Shown here: positions 10,995 through 19,840 of the stretch, piece by piece
How the letters are laid out: each line of letters opens with the position of its first letter
How positions within the stretch are numbered: the first letter of the stretch is position 1
From: Acidobacteriota bacterium
Lineage (GTDB): Bacteria; Acidobacteriota; Aminicenantia; UBA2199
Direction of reading: 5' to 3'
DNA: 19,840 nt
Assembly (NCBI GenBank): GCA_021817755.1
Contig: JAKAGC010000003.1
Span: 1 to 19,840 of the forward strand
Position numbers and translations under genes: made by a program
Notes under the pieces: generated by a model
What the model was told of the DNA's origin: nothing
Database searches by the model: none
What the model saw: only the letters and a program-made list of their open reading frames with translations

Positions 10995-11021
10995 ATTTTG
11001 CTTTCGGAGGAAATGCGATTA

Positions 11022-13871
11022 ATGTCTGATAAGAGAAATTTCAAGCGAATCCCCAATCCCTATAATCCTTATGATATAAAAGCAGGGCGTTCTTATTATA
11101 ACAAAGCCGTAACCAATGAAATCAAACGTGAATTCGAAGGCCACCCTCCTCGAAAAGTGATCTTTATTCAGGGGAGTGAAGGCTCGGGGAAATCAAGCAC
11201 CTTTAATCGCATTATTGATGAACCGGATATCATTGGGAATAAATATCTCCCCATCTATATCCATTCCAATAAAATTATTTCAGGGAAACCTGATGTGTTT
11301 TTATCGAACCTCTATGAAATCATCAAAAAAAATATCGATAAATATGGGATTCAACTATTTGATGATCCTTCCGAATCATTGAAAACAAAAATACTACTGA
11401 AAGATTTTTACCATCTTTTTTCTGCTCTTGAAAAGAAAGTGAAACCTTCCGATTCAATAATCTTATTAATTGTAGATGATTTCGATAATATATTGGAATT
11501 AAAAGATAACCATGAGCAGGTCAGTGAAGCAATCCAGTTTTTTAGAGAATTATCTGAAAAAAAGGATCGAATTCGTATCATCCTTGGCGGACGGACCGAT
11601 TTACATTCTACTGCAAGGGAGAGGGCTATCGATTCTTATTTCGATGGTGTTTTAACCATTAAAATGAAAACGTTGGACACCCGGGAATTCAATGATGCTA
11701 TTACTCATCCGGTAATGGATTGGGTCTCTTATTCACCGGAAGCGCTTGAAGAAATACGAAAAATAACAGGAGGGAATTTATACTGCCAACAATTACTCTG
11801 CTATTATATCATTATCCATCTTAATAATGAGAAAAAGTACAATTGCACCACAGAAGATGTGGTAAGCGCTGCTGATCTGGCTGTCATGGATGTACGAGAG
11901 GATTTTAATTATTTCTGGGAGAAATTGGCTGTACCGGATAAATTGGTCTGCTCTGCCATTATGGATGAAAATGAAGTTAAGAAACGGGGGCTTTATTATT
12001 TTATTGACCCTTCCGGTCTATTATCCCGAGTTTTCACTCCTGAAACCCTGAATGAAATCCTTTCCAGACTGCATGCATATGATTTTATTATTAAAATCAA
12101 CGGCAGACGTTTTGATGATTTCCCTTTCAAAATTCCTTTATACGGAAACTGGATAAATAAAGAACACCCATTTATTAAAACTGTCGTAGACCATTTCGAT
12201 ACCATTGCAAAGGAAAATGATTTCATCTCTCTTGGAAAAATAGTTGAAGATTTGCCCATTGAAATGTTCCGATCAGACAGGAAACCCATCATCGAATTTT
12301 TACGGGAATGGTTTCTCCTGAAGAAATCACTTAAAGAAAATGGTAGTGTAAATCCATACCAGATCGAAATTCCAATCCAGGCGTTTTGTAAATTCCTGGA
12401 CCTGGATATAAAGGAGAGTATTCGAACCGGTATGGAGTATTTTTCGATCGATTTTAGGAAATTAAATATCGGAAGTATTGAAGAGGCGTTCTTTATTATT
12501 CAAGACCGTCTCGAACCAGCGAAAGATGATATTCAACATCTTCGAGATATGATTATGGCACATGTGAACTCGATGCGGCCATGTCTTTTTTTCTGCTTGA
12601 AGAAAAATGACCGTATTGAAGAACTGGTGAAGAAAACGTTTTTAAATATTATTCTTATTGAAAACAATGATTTAAAAAATATATTATTTTCATCCAGACC
12701 ATTACAGAGCTTAAAAGAAATATTATTCCGAAGGATTTCAAGCAGTCAGATTTCTCCATATCAGACAGATGGTCCGGCAATAGCGACATTTTACGGAAGA
12801 AACAGGGAATTGAGGAAAATTTTAGGTTCTACGAGCCGCAGCTTCTCTGTTGTTGGCGCGCGTAAGATTGGTAAATCATCCCTTCTTGCACGAATAAAAA
12901 AAGAACTCGAAGATATGGGGGCATATTCATTGTTTATGGACCTGGAAAGTCCTACTAATCCTGATCATCAATCTTTTTTGCAACGTTCCGAAATTGAAAT
13001 TGGCCGCTTATTAAAAACAGATTTGAATTTTGAAAATAATATAGATACGTTTTGTTCTGTTCTTAAAAGTAAGTTGTCCCCCAATAAGAAACTGGTGTTC
13101 ATCCTTGATGAAATAGATGATTTACTCTCCTACGATAAAGAAAAGGATTTCCCCTTAATACGGAGTTTTCGTTCATTGTTTCAGGAGGGGTACTGCCAGT
13201 TTATCCTTTCCGGATTTGAAGTTTTGCAGAATATGAAACGGGGAATTGATTCTCCTTTTTATAATTTTTGTGAGGAAATTCCGTTAGGGCCATTGGAAAA
13301 ACAATTTGCTCTTGATTTGATTACCGAACCGATGGCAAATATTGGGATAGGATATGATAACCCGGATGATCGAGATTTAATCCTTGAATATACATCGAAT
13401 CATCCCAATTTGATCCAGTTTTTTTGTAAAAATTTGATTGAAAAGTTAGATGAAAACCCAGATCCGGTTCATCACCGGATTATTTCATACATTGATATCA
13501 GTGAGTTATATGATTTTCAATATGAAAATTATGTCATCGATGATTTTTACATGTTTTATACCGATCTAAACATACTTGAAAAGTTAATCGTAATTATATT
13601 AGTGGAGATTTACCCGGATGAATCCGCTTTTCCGATAAAGTTTATTACTCAAAAACTCGTTGAAAACGGGATCCACCTCGATGAAGGACTAATTCACAAT
13701 ACCATCCGAAAACTGGCACTCCGTTTTATTCTTCTGGATAAAGGAAAAGGGATATATCGTTTCGCATTACCTCATTTCCCAGGAATGCTTCGCGAACGTG
13801 TCGAACCTGAAATGAAGGAACGGTTAGTACGGCGAATAATAGAGGAAAATACCCTGCCTTTAAGTAATTAG
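11022..13871 (+). CDS. Large protein with two P-loop NTPase (STAND/AAA-like) modules
   Basis: This ~949-residue cytoplasmic protein has two ATPase modules. Module 1 opens with the leader NPYNPYDIKAG and has Walker A GSEGSGKSS (about 51-59) and Walker B IILLIVDDFDNIL (about 148-160), then a winged-helix-like region. Module 2 opens with SPYQTDGPAIATFYGRNREL (about 584-603), with Walker A GARKIGKSS (about 612-620), Walker B LVFILDEIDDLL (about 690-701) and HPNLIQFFCKNL, a helix typical of STAND/Orc-like lid regions, then a wHTH-like tail. Both Walker sites look intact. Between them (about 430-580) is an unrecognised alpha/beta segment. Such proteins often act as switches or loaders; the partner is unknown. 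GGAGG (11006-11010) favours ATG 11022 over upstream TTG 10998 or ATG 11013. It is the middle gene of the 9963-15302 operon. Confidence 0.75.
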   Translation: MSDKRNFKRIPNPYNPYDIKAGRSYYNKAVTNEIKREFEGHPPRKVIFIQGSEGSGKSSTFNRIIDEPDIIGNKYLPIYIHSNKIISGKPDVFLSNLYEIIKKNIDKYGIQLFDDPSESLKTKILLKDFYHLFSALEKKVKPSDSIILLIVDDFDNILELKDNHEQVSEAIQFFRELSEKKDRIRIILGGRTDLHSTARERAIDSYFDGVLTIKMKTLDTREFNDAITHPVMDWVSYSPEALEEIRKITGGNLYCQQLLCYYIIIHLNNEKKYNCTTEDVVSAADLAVMDVREDFNYFWEKLAVPDKLVCSAIMDENEVKKRGLYYFIDPSGLLSRVFTPETLNEILSRLHAYDFIIKINGRRFDDFPFKIPLYGNWINKEHPFIKTVVDHFDTIAKENDFISLGKIVEDLPIEMFRSDRKPIIEFLREWFLLKKSLKENGSVNPYQIEIPIQAFCKFLDLDIKESIRTGMEYFSIDFRKLNIGSIEEAFFIIQDRLEPAKDDIQHLRDMIMAHVNSMRPCLFFCLKKNDRIEELVKKTFLNIILIENNDLKNILFSSRPLQSLKEILFRRISSSQISPYQTDGPAIATFYGRNRELRKILGSTSRSFSVVGARKIGKSSLLARIKKELEDMGAYSLFMDLESPTNPDHQSFLQRSEIEIGRLLKTDLNFENNIDTFCSVLKSKLSPNKKLVFILDEIDDLLSYDKEKDFPLIRSFRSLFQEGYCQFILSGFEVLQNMKRGIDSPFYNFCEEIPLGPLEKQFALDLITEPMANIGIGYDNPDDRDLILEYTSNHPNLIQFFCKNLIEKLDENPDPVHHRIISYIDISELYDFQYENYVIDDFYMFYTDLNILEKLIVIILVEIYPDESAFPIKFITQKLVENGIHLDEGLIHNTIRKLALRFILLDKGKGIYRFALPHFPGMLRERVEPEMKERLVRRIIEENTLPLSN

Positions 13872-15361: not shown

Positions 15362-17617
15362 CTAACAATATCCATTTATCAATTCGATTAATTGCTTTCC
15401 GCTCGGTCTTTTCGTAGGTTCTTTCCGAATCATCTCTATTATAAAATCGTTCAATTCCACTGGAATATCTTTTCTATAAACCGCAGGTTCCGGCGGTTCT
15501 TTTTCCAGGATTTGCTTGATAATATCAACAGGAGTTTCTCCAAGAAACGGTTTTTCCAGTGTTAACATTTCATAAAATACTATTCCTAACGAATAGAGGT
15601 CGCCAAGTGGGGAGTATTCCTGGTGGGCAATCCGTTCCGGGGGAAGGTAATTGATTGTTCCAAGTATCTCACCTGTTTCCGTTAACCTTGTTAGCGATTG
15701 TGTTCGTGCCAAACCGAAATCAAGGAGTTTTACGAAAGGCGTATCGCTTTTTTCAAGGATCATAATATTTTCCGGTTTAAGATCACGGTGTATGATTCCT
15801 CTTGAATGAATCTTGTCCAGTGCTTCCGTTAATTGCGTCATAATTTTTAAGCAATAGGGGATAGGAATGAGTTCACCTTTTTTTATTATTTCAGCCAGAG
15901 AATTTCCTTGCAACATCTCCATGGCAATGAATAAACGTTGATTGGATTCTCCGCGTTCATAAATTTTTACGATGTTCGGGTGATCCAATTGATCGATCAT
16001 TGCTGCTTCGTTTAAAAAGCGTTTTCGGTATGTCGGATCTTTGGAATGTTCTTCACGGATTACTTTTAATGCAGCCGTTTTTTCTCGATCCATGATATGG
16101 GTTGCTTTATAAACGATTCCCATGCCTCCTGAACCGATTTCTTCAATAATGCGATAATGACCGATATAATTCTTTCTTTTCCAGAATGAGAATAGATACA
16201 TGAATTGCTTAAATAATACTATTCCGATGACTAAAATTAATACGATACCCGCTATTAAAATTGTAGATTTAAGCCGTTCGCGGCTTAATTTTAATTTCTG
16301 TATCTCATTATTTTTTTGTAGTAGTTCATTATTCTTTGCAAGAAGTGCAATCTCTTTTTCTTTTTTCTGTGTTTCGTATTTAGTCTGTAATTCTGCCATC
16401 TTGTCATTGGATTCTTTACTCAAGATTTCATCTTTTATATTTACAAATAATTTGAAATAAGAAAGCGCTTTTTGATAATCTTTTTTTTCTTCGTAAATTC
16501 CTGAGAGATTTTTATAGATATCATGGAGTGCATCTTTTGCATTAATTTCTATAGCAATGGATAGACTCTTTTCAAAGGCAGAAATCGCATTGTCTATCCG
16601 ATGTTGTTTGAAGTAAAGTCGTCCAAGGTTTCCCAGGATCTCTGCCACTCCTTTTTTTTCTCCCATCTCTTCACGGATTTTAAGCGATTCATTGTAATAG
16701 GTCAATGCCATATCATATTGACCCAATATTCTGTATATATTTCCCAGGTTATCCAGTGTAGCCCCAATATCCTTTTTATTTCCGATATCTCTTTTTAATT
16801 TCAGTGATTTCTCATAGTATACTTTTGCATTCCTATAATCTTTTTGTCCTTCTTTAACTACGCCAATGTTATTTAGATTTCGGGCGATACCTTCTTTGTT
16901 ATTCAATTCTGTTTCGATTTTCAGGGCAGTATTATAGTATTCAAGTGCTTTATCAAAACGTCCCAGTTTCCTGTAAACTACACCAACGTTTGTCGTTAGA
17001 ATCGCTTGTCCCGCTTTATCTCCTGATTCTTCGTAAATCCTTATCGATTCCAGGTAGTTTTCGATCGCTTTATCATACAGCCCCATTTCATCATAAATTA
17101 TTCCTGCAATATTCAAACATGAAGCCCTACCTGGTTTAAAACCGATTTCATCGGCAATTTCCCCCGATTGTTTTATATATTCCAATGCTTGCTTATAATT
17201 GCTCTGTGTATAATATGTAATTCCTATATTATGAAAAAGGAATCCCATCTCTTTTTTATTGTTTTCTTTTTTTGCCAATTCCAATGCTTTGAAAAAGTAA
17301 TCCAATGCTTTTCCGGTTTCCCCCAATACTTGATAAGCCGAACCTTCGTTCCGTAAAGCCATTGTTTCATTTTTTATATCTTTGTATTTTCGTGCTAATT
17401 CCAGAGCTTTCAGACTATAGTCCAGGCTTTTTCTCGGTTGATTGCTAACTGTTTTTTTAGCCAGAGTATTTAGAATTTCAGGTTTTTCTTTTTCGTTTGC
17501 ATTCATTAGTTTTTTTTCAATCTCATCGATCGATTCAGAAAATCCCCATATAGAAACCAATGTGAATAATACCCCTGCGAATAACATCATAACCCGAAAA
17601 CTTCCGCGTTTATTCAT
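15362..17617 (-). CDS. TPR - transmembrane - Ser/Thr protein kinase receptor
   Basis: This is a 751-residue sensor kinase. It has an N-terminal signal/anchor (VMMLFAGVLFTLVSIWGFS) and about eight tetratricopeptide repeats with a ~40-residue period (about 50-400; repeated motifs such as NLGNIYRILGQYDMALTYY). These are followed by a coiled coil (about 405-445), a membrane helix (STILIAGIVLILVIGIVLF, about 449-467) and a complete eukaryote-like kinase domain (about 480-751). The kinase has the glycine loop GSGGMG (about 491-496), the ALK lysine (about 515), HRDLKPEN (about 609), DFGLA (about 633) and the APE-equivalent PPE, so it should be active. Topology puts the TPRs outside the cytoplasm and the kinase inside. 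In many acidobacterial-type kinases the order is reversed. GGAG lies 8 nt before ATG. Confidence 0.93.
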   Translation of the reverse strand: MNKRGSFRVMMLFAGVLFTLVSIWGFSESIDEIEKKLMNANEKEKPEILNTLAKKTVSNQPRKSLDYSLKALELARKYKDIKNETMALRNEGSAYQVLGETGKALDYFFKALELAKKENNKKEMGFLFHNIGITYYTQSNYKQALEYIKQSGEIADEIGFKPGRASCLNIAGIIYDEMGLYDKAIENYLESIRIYEESGDKAGQAILTTNVGVVYRKLGRFDKALEYYNTALKIETELNNKEGIARNLNNIGVVKEGQKDYRNAKVYYEKSLKLKRDIGNKKDIGATLDNLGNIYRILGQYDMALTYYNESLKIREEMGEKKGVAEILGNLGRLYFKQHRIDNAISAFEKSLSIAIEINAKDALHDIYKNLSGIYEEKKDYQKALSYFKLFVNIKDEILSKESNDKMAELQTKYETQKKEKEIALLAKNNELLQKNNEIQKLKLSRERLKSTILIAGIVLILVIGIVLFKQFMYLFSFWKRKNYIGHYRIIEEIGSGGMGIVYKATHIMDREKTAALKVIREEHSKDPTYRKRFLNEAAMIDQLDHPNIVKIYERGESNQRLFIAMEMLQGNSLAEIIKKGELIPIPYCLKIMTQLTEALDKIHSRGIIHRDLKPENIMILEKSDTPFVKLLDFGLARTQSLTRLTETGEILGTINYLPPERIAHQEYSPLGDLYSLGIVFYEMLTLEKPFLGETPVDIIKQILEKEPPEPAVYRKDIPVELNDFIIEMIRKEPTKRPSGKQLIELINGYC

Positions 17618-17681
17618 ATTATAACTCCATCATGGTTATATAATAAATATCGTTTTTCCAGTCCATGAATTTATATTTAAA

Positions 17682-17710
17682 ATTGTATCATACCCCTTTA
17701 TAAAGATCAA
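17682..17710 (-). promoter_or_regulatory. sigma-70 promoter of the TPR-kinase gene
   Basis: On the minus strand TTGATC (17710-17705) and TACAAT (17687-17682) are separated by exactly 17 nt. The predicted start near 17675 gives a leader of about 58 nt. Confidence 0.6.
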
Positions 17711-17803
17711 ATACCCGTTCTATAAACCTTTTATCGCCTTTTAATAATTTTTTATTTTTGTTAGATAAATAACCTCTCGAAAATAATTAAATCATTATCC
17801 CCG

Positions 17804-17832
17804 TTGAAATCCCAGTATATTTGTTTTACAAT
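17804..17832 (+). promoter_or_regulatory. sigma-70 promoter of the sigma-54 activator gene
   Basis: TTGAAA (17804-17809) and TACAAT (17827-17832) are separated by exactly 17 nt. Transcription should start near 17839, about 22 nt before the ATG, with GAGG of the leader as SD. Confidence 0.7.
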
Positions 17833-17860
17833 AGAAGATCGGAAACGAGGCTGATAATCA

Positions 17861-19273
17861 ATGATAGAAAGTATTAAAACCAAGGTATGGGAATTATTAA
17901 AAGAGAAGCAGGTTTCTCTGGTAATGCTTTATGACCGGGAAGGGAAAATCCTCTGGCACAGGGGGCGGAAGATTAACGGTAATACTGTTCAAACCGGAGA
18001 CGGATTTTCACACAGTGCTATTGAGAATACATTAAAAAGTGAAAATACTGTTCGCCAGGATGATGTTGTCATAACATTATCAGGTACCGGTCTGCCTCAA
18101 TCCGCGCGAATATTGTATGTGAAGAGTTTAATTATCCGGCCCGTGCCCCCGCGTTATTTTTTATATCTCGATAGTGGAATAAAGGAATATTTTAGCGCAC
18201 TTGATCTTGAGATTTTCAATGTCCTTGGGAATTTACTTGTCGATGTCATTCAACAGATTCAATCCCACCAGGAGGATACCGGAGGAATAAGTGGAACCAG
18301 TTCCGCTATTAAGGAAATCCGGGAACAGGTTATTACGTATTCCCTCGAAGAAGAACCTGTATTATTACTTGGAGAAACAGGTGTCGGAAAAAGTCACATT
18401 GCCAAGTTGATTCACCGGTTTTCCGGAAGAAAAGGGCCTTTTATAATTGTCAATACTCCTGCGATTCCTGAAAATCTTTTTGAAAGTGAAATTTTCGGAC
18501 ATAAGAAAGGTGCGTTTACCGGTGCAAGTGATAATAAAAAAGGATTGGTAGAGGAGGCTCATGGAGGGACTATTTTCTTTGATGAAATAGCTGAAGTACC
18601 TGCCACGTTTCAGGCCAAATTGCTTCAATTCATTGAATCACGTTGTTACCGTGTTCTCGGTGATTCTAAAGAGAGACAGGCTGATGTACGTATTCTGGCT
18701 GCTACCAACAGGGACCTTGCTCAAGAGGTAAAAGCAAAACGTTTCCGCGATGATTTGTATTACCGGTTAAATGTACTTCCAATCGATATCCCTCCTTTAC
18801 GAAAACGCAGAGAGGATATAATAGCTATTCTCGATGAGAACGCCAATTTCTTACGTGGAAAAGTACTGGATCAAGAGGTGCGGGGTATTTTTACTGCTTA
18901 TGATTGGCCAGGGAATATTAGGGAGTTGATTCATGTAATAAAGCGAATTGGTATCCAGGTAAATCAACCCGTAACGTCTCATGAAGTACGGTCATTAATT
19001 ACCATGCGGAATAGTCTTGAAATAGGGTCCCAATTGAATTTTTCTTTATTTGATGAAGAAATAGCCGTAGGGAAGAGTTTCTGGGAAACATTGTGGAAAG
19101 CGTTCCTTGACCGGGAAATTTCGCGAAAAGAGATAAAGAGTATTTTGGAAAGGTATTTTACATTGAGTCATAATAGTTTAAAAGGGATGTCTCAGCGTTT
19201 AAACATTCAGGAAAAAGATTATCCACGATTTATATCTGCTTTGCATAAATATCAAATCCATCCCGGAAAATAA
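17861..19273 (+). CDS. Sigma-54-dependent transcriptional activator (enhancer-binding protein)
   Basis: This 470-residue protein uses ATP to open promoters held by RNA polymerase-sigma-54. The central AAA+ domain is complete: Walker A GETGVGKS (about 170-177), the sigma-54-contacting GAFTGA loop (about 218-223), Walker B GTIFFDEI (about 239-246) and arginine-finger region RFRDDLYYRLNVLPIDIPPLRKR (about 291-313). The N-terminal ~150 residues are not a response-regulator receiver; they look like a small sensory domain of GAF type, beginning LVMLYDREGKILWHRG. The C-terminus (NSLKGMSQRLNIQEKDYPRF, then ISALHKYQI) resembles a Fis-type helix-turn-helix with a short insertion, so DNA binding is likely but divergent. 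It is divergent from the kinase gene. A matching sigma-54 promoter lies 280 nt downstream. Confidence 0.95.
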   Translation: MIESIKTKVWELLKEKQVSLVMLYDREGKILWHRGRKINGNTVQTGDGFSHSAIENTLKSENTVRQDDVVITLSGTGLPQSARILYVKSLIIRPVPPRYFLYLDSGIKEYFSALDLEIFNVLGNLLVDVIQQIQSHQEDTGGISGTSSAIKEIREQVITYSLEEEPVLLLGETGVGKSHIAKLIHRFSGRKGPFIIVNTPAIPENLFESEIFGHKKGAFTGASDNKKGLVEEAHGGTIFFDEIAEVPATFQAKLLQFIESRCYRVLGDSKERQADVRILAATNRDLAQEVKAKRFRDDLYYRLNVLPIDIPPLRKRREDIIAILDENANFLRGKVLDQEVRGIFTAYDWPGNIRELIHVIKRIGIQVNQPVTSHEVRSLITMRNSLEIGSQLNFSLFDEEIAVGKSFWETLWKAFLDREISRKEIKSILERYFTLSHNSLKGMSQRLNIQEKDYPRFISALHKYQIHPGK

Positions 19274-19296
19274 CCTTATAAAAAATTTTGGGGAGT

Positions 19297-19326
19297 GCAG
19301 AACCCTTTTTATAAAAAGGGTTTTGC
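19297..19326 (+). terminator. Intrinsic terminator of the sigma-54 activator gene
   Basis: GCAGAACCCTTTTT (19297-19310) pairs with AAAAAGGGTTTTGC (19313-19326), a 14-bp stem with one wobble and a 2-nt spacer, 23 nt after the stop. The TTTT in the 3' arm replaces a separate T-tail. The stem is symmetric enough to work in both directions. Confidence 0.7.
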
Positions 19327-19348
19327 AAAATAAAATCAAGGTATAATC

Positions 19349-19366
19349 CATACCCTATACGGTATT
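19349..19366. promoter_or_regulatory. Candidate enhancer site 1 (inverted repeat)
   Basis: CATACC-N6-GGTATT. The same two half-sites, with the same 6-nt spacing, occur again 77 bp downstream. An extra GGTAT half-site at 19340-19344 makes an overlapping palindrome with ATACC. Its centre lies about 205 bp upstream of the sigma-54 -12 element. Confidence 0.5.
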
Positions 19367-19425
19367 TCCTGGAATCTTCTTTATATCAGGCTTTCACCTC
19401 ATATTTTAACTCATATATATTATTC

Positions 19426-19443
19426 CATACCACCCAGGGTATG
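19426..19443. promoter_or_regulatory. Candidate enhancer site 2 (perfect inverted repeat)
   Basis: CATACC-N6-GGTATG is a perfect 6-bp dyad, centred about 130 bp upstream of the sigma-54 -12 element. This is a typical distance for activator-binding sites that loop to the promoter. Confidence 0.55.
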
Positions 19444-19549
19444 CGTAATTTTGCCAACCATTAAAATCTCATTTTATATAATACCCAAATACTTCGATAA
19501 TAAAGGGGTTTCAGGTTTTAACACTTTCTCCAAATTTTACTATTTCTCC

Positions 19550-19565
19550 TGGCAAGTAATTTGCA
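19550..19565 (+). promoter_or_regulatory. Sigma-54 (-24/-12) promoter
   Basis: TGGCAAGTAATTTGCA matches the consensus TGGCACG-N4-TTGCW at all conserved positions but one (A for C at position 6). The invariant GG and GC are correctly spaced. The transcript should start about 12 nt after the GC, near 19576, and reach the SD at 19604. Confidence 0.75.
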
Positions 19566-19618
19566 TTTGATTTCATATTGAAGAATTAATTAACGCGATT
19601 ATTAAAGGAGATTTAAAT

Positions 19619-19642
19619 ATGAATAGTATTTCCATTAGTTAA
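19619..19642 (+). pseudogene. Start of a sigma-54-driven gene, open for only seven codons
   Basis: AAAGGAG at 19604-19610 is 8 nt before ATG 19619, as good a start as any in the window. The frame reads MNSISIS and then stops at TAA 19640-19642. The following sequence is richer in G+C and carries a frame on the other strand. The most likely readings are a gene cut by an insertion or deletion, or an assembly join. A functional heptapeptide leader is possible but less likely. Confidence 0.5.
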
Positions 19643-19781
19643 GATTGTTGTGTTCGTCAATGTCATTCAGTTCGTTGTGCCAGAACTTTCGGTCGGCTTC
19701 GTCTGCCCTGTGTTGCGCAATTAGGTACAGGCATAGTATACCTAGGCATAGGCAGGCAATGGTTAGGATGGTGTTTAACAT
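19635..19781 (-). CDS. Possible small single-pass membrane protein, 48 residues
   Basis: A short frame encodes a hydrophobic N-terminal helix (TILTIACLCLGILCLYLIA) followed by a charged tail rich in D, E, H and N. GGAGG lies 16 nt upstream of ATG 19781, too far for a normal SD. The frame can be extended upstream to ATG 19838, but that part lacks protein-like character. It lies in a segment of about 44% G+C that begins near 19640 and differs from the flanking AT-rich DNA, so it may belong to a mobile element or to foreign sequence. I do not recognise a family. Confidence 0.35.
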   Translation of the reverse strand: MLNTILTIACLCLGILCLYLIAQHRADEADRKFWHNELNDIDEHNNLN

Positions 19782-19840
19782 GATTAATAATTTTCTGCCT
19801 CCAGGCGGGTGATAAAAAAATGTATTCCACTGGCACATTC

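Follow-up and report, generated by a model that had tools for sequence, protein, structure and literature searches.

The question raised by this locus is whether a -24/-12 element behind the gene of a sigma-54 activator is a genuine promoter, and whether the activator encoded next to it, an enhancer-binding protein (EBP), controls whatever is transcribed from there. The window, i.e. the whole stretch of 19,840 nucleotides that was analysed, is an entire contig (C371), which ends at position 19840, 275 bp past the promoter site. The following features were recognised at this site and behind it:

19550..19565, plus strand: putative -24/-12 promoter TGGCAAGTAATTTGCA (weight-matrix score, position, recurrence in relatives)
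19575..19576, plus strand: expected transcription start (predicted from the -12 spacing only)
19604..19610, plus strand: Shine-Dalgarno sequence AAAGGAG, 8 bases before an ATG at 19619 (sequence)
19619..19642, plus strand: seven-codon ORF MNSISIS with its stop at 19640-19642 (sequence)
19635..19838, minus strand: convergent 67-amino-acid ORF with a hydrophobic stretch, its reality uncertain (ORF list)

The whole window was scored with a self-built weight matrix, the frequencies of which were approximated from the sigma-54 consensus. The top match was TGGCAAGTAATTTGCA with a score of 18.2, followed by a runner-up at 12.0. None of 30 dinucleotide-resampled windows reached 18.2. The GG of the -24 element and the GC of the -12 element are separated by 12 bases, which is the consensus spacing, and the site begins 277 bp downstream of the stop of the EBP gene. 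The first-pass annotation had described a consensus site with correct GG/GC spacing, located about 280 bp behind an intact EBP gene and followed after a leader by an ideal Shine-Dalgarno sequence. This description was borne out, and the EBP has an intact GAFTGA motif. The annotation leaves out that the Shine-Dalgarno sequence opens only seven codons. When positions 19500-19840 were searched against the same genome and three same-genus genomes, only the window itself was matched.

The gene in front of the site and its neighbour were assigned as follows:

17861..19273, plus strand: sigma-54 activator (EBP) gene, 470 amino acids (ORF, domain search, subfamily alignment)
18509..18526, plus strand: GAFTGA motif of the L1 loop, residues 217-222 (translation)
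15362..17617, minus strand: TPR-Ser/Thr protein kinase gene, divergent from the EBP gene, possible signal input (ORF, domain search)

The EBP consists of an N-terminal domain (residues 1-138), an AAA+ domain (residues 144-308) and a C-terminal region (about residues 384-470). The Pfam model Sigma54_activat matched with 204.9 bits (cut-off 20.2), and GAFTGA is the signature of sigma-54 contact (PMC7175178). All Pfam matches of the window's EBP were confined to residues 132-370, with none in its N-terminal or C-terminal part; for the other 22 subfamily members, the Pfam results cover the 25 commonest of 49 families and carry no positions. The C-terminal region is conserved across the subfamily in the alignment and looks Fis-like by eye. 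A profile of the N-terminal domain gave a single match among solved structures, with an E value of 0.98 which we took as none; by eye alone, a GAF-like fold may be suggested. A structure model predicted from the one sequence alone reached a mean pLDDT of only 33.2 and was not usable. The likeness to RtcR- and NorR-type EBPs lies in the AAA+ domain. Both were the best NCBIfam models (261 bits for RtcR, 254 bits for NorR), but these scores are far below the cut-offs of 650 and 476, and the matches span only residues 132-376.

Of 29 other loci, 10 also gave kinase-domain matches; their distance varies, and the count has no control set. In locus L158 a kinase, the EBP and a second TPR-kinase are encoded in succession on one strand. 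Elsewhere in the window a 957-amino-acid protein with two AAA/STAND-like ATPase regions is encoded at 10998-13871 (plus strand).

The first-pass annotation had held that a genome without rpoN would speak against the promoter. The draft genome comprises 811 contigs and is 79.6% complete; two domain searches for rpoN gave no match in it. In total, rpoN was found in 39 of the 41 genomes searched, this draft being one of the 41, and all three same-genus relatives possess it. In these three relatives hpf comes after rpoN. On contig C410 of the draft, hpf begins at base 83, and the preceding bases encode DEMNIPNSSKRKEQYKLNEN followed by a stop, which is close to the C-terminal end of RpoN from the relative L194, DEMNIANSSKRKEQYKLLNEISKT. 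In our reading, C410 starts with the remaining end of an rpoN gene truncated at the contig edge; lptB and hpf, too, were named by us from the sequences. On this point the empty domain searches stand against the annotation, and the RpoN-like tail in front of hpf stands in its favour.

In order to compare the arrangement among relatives, an EBP subfamily was defined by the N-terminal 138 residues of the window's EBP. Within the same family, 17 of 34 genomes contained it (32 matches), and a profile search across the class recovered it from 24 of 142 genomes. In the same-genus genome G001 neither the family-level search nor the class-level profile search found a member. The PNPase of the draft is 53% identical to that of the genome containing L069, a Candidatus Aminicenantes genome. 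Four members of the same class gave 52-56% and seven further named genomes 43-51%, which makes this class the probable one. The set of 28 loci comprised 26 of the 32 neighbourhoods from the family search, three partial relatives from the EBP search (L184-L186) and the window, minus L173 (cut by a contig end) and L182 (broken). L187 was also unused, and five short pieces (three from G045, one from G049 and the second one in G023) were left out. The loci are not independent, eight of the 28 being from G002. In L160 and L177 a shift or an N-gap interrupts the EBP frame, and there the distance to the site was counted from the stop of the C-terminal piece.

Sites were accepted at a score of at least 12.5, a limit chosen after the first loci had been seen. 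A -24/-12 site on the same strand and no more than 600 bp downstream of the EBP stop was observed in 20 of the 28 loci (14 genomes, window included), or in 19 of 27 without the window. In 19 of the 20 it lies 78-325 bp after the stop and in the remaining one at 539 bp. The opposite strand behind the EBP gene carried a site in 1/28 loci. Upstream of the EBP gene, sites were found in 1/28 loci on the same strand and in 2/28 on the divergent strand; these upstream controls are weaker because the sequence available in front of the EBP gene is short in some loci. From shuffled sequences 0.44 of 28 loci would be expected to contain a site. Among same-genus EBPs outside the subfamily, 3 of 19 had a site after the stop. 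Of the 21 loci available for this control, L011 (stops in frame) and L026 (too short) were excluded, which left 19; in two of them the stretch examined covered 403 and 505 bp rather than the full 600.

Other families of the class supplied a later set, made up of 11 of the 12 class-profile matches outside the family; G031 was left out, and L209a and L209b are near-copies on one contig. A site stands 162-257 bp behind the EBP in seven of these 11 loci, and no site is listed for the opposite strand. The loci without a qualifying site are L206 (score 11.2), L204 (no DNA past the EBP frame), L210 (shifted) and L211, where a kinase gene follows the EBP immediately. Thus, the conserved activator-promoter arrangement that the first-pass annotation had looked for in related genomes does recur (20/28 loci against 1/28 on the opposite strand and 3/19 for other EBPs, and 7/11 in the later set), and this comparison across loci supports its suggestion, made from local pairing, that the activator controls the promoter. 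Its expectation for the promoter elements was confirmed in part: TGGCA/TTGC recur in relatives, but behind the EBP gene of L158, the closest homologue (64% identity), there is no site and the second TPR-kinase gene comes directly next. Altogether 8 of the 28 loci have no site at the limit of 12.5. In L164 a site is instead found farther on, before a leader-like peptide that scored below the family cut-off.

In 21 of the 27 loci whose site scores 12.5 or more, a start codon with a Shine-Dalgarno sequence follows the site within 400 bp. In 19 of them it lies at 47-121 bp (69 bp in the window) and in two at 357 and 365 bp. The genes behind these promoters differ. A class I lanthipeptide leader was recognised above the NCBIfam cut-off in L185, and a pinensin leader (NCBIfam) in L170, where the site scores only 11.8; these two places were tested under the identifiers L029 and L007. 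L175 encodes a radical-SAM peptide maturase above the NCBIfam cut-off, and L166 a radical-SAM protein beside a 51-amino-acid peptide of no family. L159 and L165 contain protease genes. Tail-sheath genes lie downstream of the promoter in L184 and L186, in L184 together with an ATPase gene; by our own reading they would belong to extracellular contractile injection clusters. The first proteins tested from L162, L168, L171 and L174 had no family match. In L209, L212 and L213 a G+C-rich inverted repeat of like sequence was seen by eye in the leader just past the promoter, perhaps a structured 5' region.

In the window itself neither a precursor peptide nor a maturase is encoded between the promoter and the contig end, and the convergent 67-amino-acid ORF had no match in phages or PHROGs. 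Since the Shine-Dalgarno sequence opens only seven codons, the target gene of the promoter probably lies beyond the contig end. The window might instead hold a decayed copy, in which the promoter survives, the first gene is reduced to a seven-codon remnant and nothing useful is expressed. Such decay is compatible with a real promoter. It would fit the short ORF and the convergent ORF that lies across the transcript, and in L159, L165 and L207 the Shine-Dalgarno sequence after the promoter likewise opens a tiny ORF, of 13, 3 and 6 codons, respectively. These tiny first ORFs are perhaps remnants or leader peptides. However, in L159 and L165 long protease ORFs come after the tiny one, the EBP and the promoter of the window are both intact, and the contig simply stops 275 bp past the site. 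We therefore regard decay as possible but rather doubtful.

Between the EBP stop and the promoter two copies of one palindrome were found:

19350..19365, plus strand: ATACC-N6-GGTAT palindrome, proposed distal upstream activating sequence (UAS) (sequence, shuffle tests)
19427..19442, plus strand: ATACC-N6-GGTAT palindrome, proposed proximal UAS (sequence, shuffle tests)

The two copies are 77 bp apart. By a general pair statistic, the pair was equalled in 22 of 100 shuffles and is not significant; a pair with identical arms occurred in 16 of 1000 shuffles, in a test that was framed after the pair had been seen. The place of the proximal palindrome (19426-19443) was the only terminator-like hit in 17600-19840, where 2.1 would be expected by chance. 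The pattern ATACC-N6-GGTAT occurs at 19 places in the draft genome and its reversed form at 4, and the window's contig alone holds two of the 19. The additional places are perhaps further sites of the EBP or of another regulator. Just past the EBP stop, at 19301-19322, there is also a perfect palindrome AACCC...GGGTT, which is absent from the list of the terminator scan and may be the terminator of the EBP gene or another binding site.

Paired like palindromes are present between the EBP stop and the promoter in many loci of the subfamily, and they are probably activator-binding sites. In 11 of 21 loci no more than 1 of 100 shuffles equalled the pair. For L160 and L177, up to 300 bp before the site were tested, which is partly still EBP coding sequence. 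The two members of these 11 clear pairs are spaced by 68-100 bp or by 20-21 bp, and in nine of the 11 loci a distance of 79-85 bp separates the centre of the proximal palindrome from the -24 element downstream of it. This distance is not general. In the window the centre lies at 115 bp, about three helical turns beyond the first set. In the later set, pairs were found at up to 2 of 100 shuffles in 6 of 8 loci (5 of 8 at the limit of 1 of 100). There the proximal centre lies near 82 bp in two of the eight loci, at 70 bp in one and at 119 bp in one; the remaining four contain a pair spaced by 20-21 bp, and its centre is 148-153 bp away from the -24 element. The palindrome sequence tracks the C-terminus of the EBP (Mantel r 0.75, 0 of 5000 permutations, relatedness not controlled) in 12 loci, namely those chosen for clear pairs plus the window.

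These data also bear on the idea that the promoter is real but responds to a different EBP of the cell, while the neighbouring EBP acts elsewhere. With 21 matches, fragments included, EBPs are numerous in the draft genome, and the palindromes of the window alone are weakly significant, one of them being perhaps a terminator. Against this, the linkage of EBP and promoter marks the subfamily (20/28 versus 3/19), and the palindromes vary with the C-terminus of the subfamily's own EBP. Activation by a different EBP is thus unlikely.

A small regulatory RNA instead of an mRNA is still less probable as the product. Sigma-54 promoters can drive small RNAs (PMC10162802) and no long ORF follows the promoter in the window, but a near-ideal Shine-Dalgarno sequence stands at the distance that is seen before coding genes in relatives. 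In addition, an Rfam search of 19200-19840 gave three matches, all far below the gathering scores, and no terminator-like site was detected in 19566-19840.

The -24/-12 motif by itself is only mildly enriched genome-wide: the 4.74 Mb draft contains 12 exact copies of TGGCAN6TTGCA, compared to 8 of the reversed control pattern. Consequently, the site at 19550-19565 gains its meaning from its position and not from its sequence alone. A chance match without function, for which this count and the siteless closest homologue could be quoted, is very improbable in view of position, strand and recurrence in relatives.

Taken together, we consider it likely that 19550-19565 is a genuine sigma-54 promoter which is activated by the adjacent, upstream-encoded EBP via the palindromes and DNA looping, with a transcription start near 19576. 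For the window we infer the following course of events. Dimers of the EBP would bind both ATACC-N6-GGTAT palindromes, and looping of the DNA would bring the bound EBP to the promoter. Its AAA+ ring would then open the sigma-54 holoenzyme at 19550-19565. The timing would be set by a signal at the N-terminal domain of the EBP, perhaps together with the neighbouring kinase. The window would represent one copy of a recurring unit composed of an EBP gene, paired palindromes, a -24/-12 promoter and a cargo operon, the cargo of this copy lying probably past the contig end.

The general mechanism of sigma-54 activation has been described before (PMC7175178). EBP genes of Clostridiales are usually located near their target operon, UAS motifs with inverted repeats were found for each EBP group, and 170 of 263 EBPs control one operon (PMC6615313). 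The locus described here shares with these regulons an activator gene near its probable target and, as proposed, inverted-repeat UAS. It differs in that Pfam recognises neither the N- nor the C-terminal part of the window's EBP and in that the recognised cargo of its relatives consists of peptides, maturases, proteases and tail-sheath genes. In Myxococcus xanthus, Nla28 and sigma-54 control natural-product genes (PMC7910581). The likeness is that natural-product loci there carry sigma-54 promoters together with EBP sites. However, those loci are polyketide and non-ribosomal peptide clusters and the vast majority of their promoters is located inside genes (PMC7910581), whereas here the EBP gene lies directly before the operon and the promoter is intergenic.

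The stems Acidobacteri and Aminicenan are absent from the main text of a survey of sigma-54 regulons (PMC12316311). Among the matches listed for sigma54 and lanthipeptide in the open-licence literature neither term occurs in a title or abstract, and nothing in that literature pairs Aminicenant with lanthipeptide. No description of the EBP subfamily was found in the open-licence literature searched, so that the subfamily is apparently undescribed. Measured against these sources, the mechanism is ordinary, and what looks new is the EBP subfamily, together with its cargo and the variation among its palindromes.

A wider reading, which we find plausible and slightly favour, is that the class carries a set of insulated sigma-54 switches with one activator for one operon, the window included. 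Each switch would possess its own EBP, palindromes that track the C-terminus of this EBP, a promoter and exchangeable cargo, i.e. modified peptides with radical-SAM maturases, proteases or contractile-tail clusters. If this is true, peptide and secretion operons of a poorly cultured group would follow a simple rule and be found about 80-330 bp behind these EBP genes. The natural variation of palindromes and C-termini would let the DNA-recognition code of the EBP subfamily be read from sequence, and the copies would make up a collection of activator-promoter pairs that could be tested for independence.
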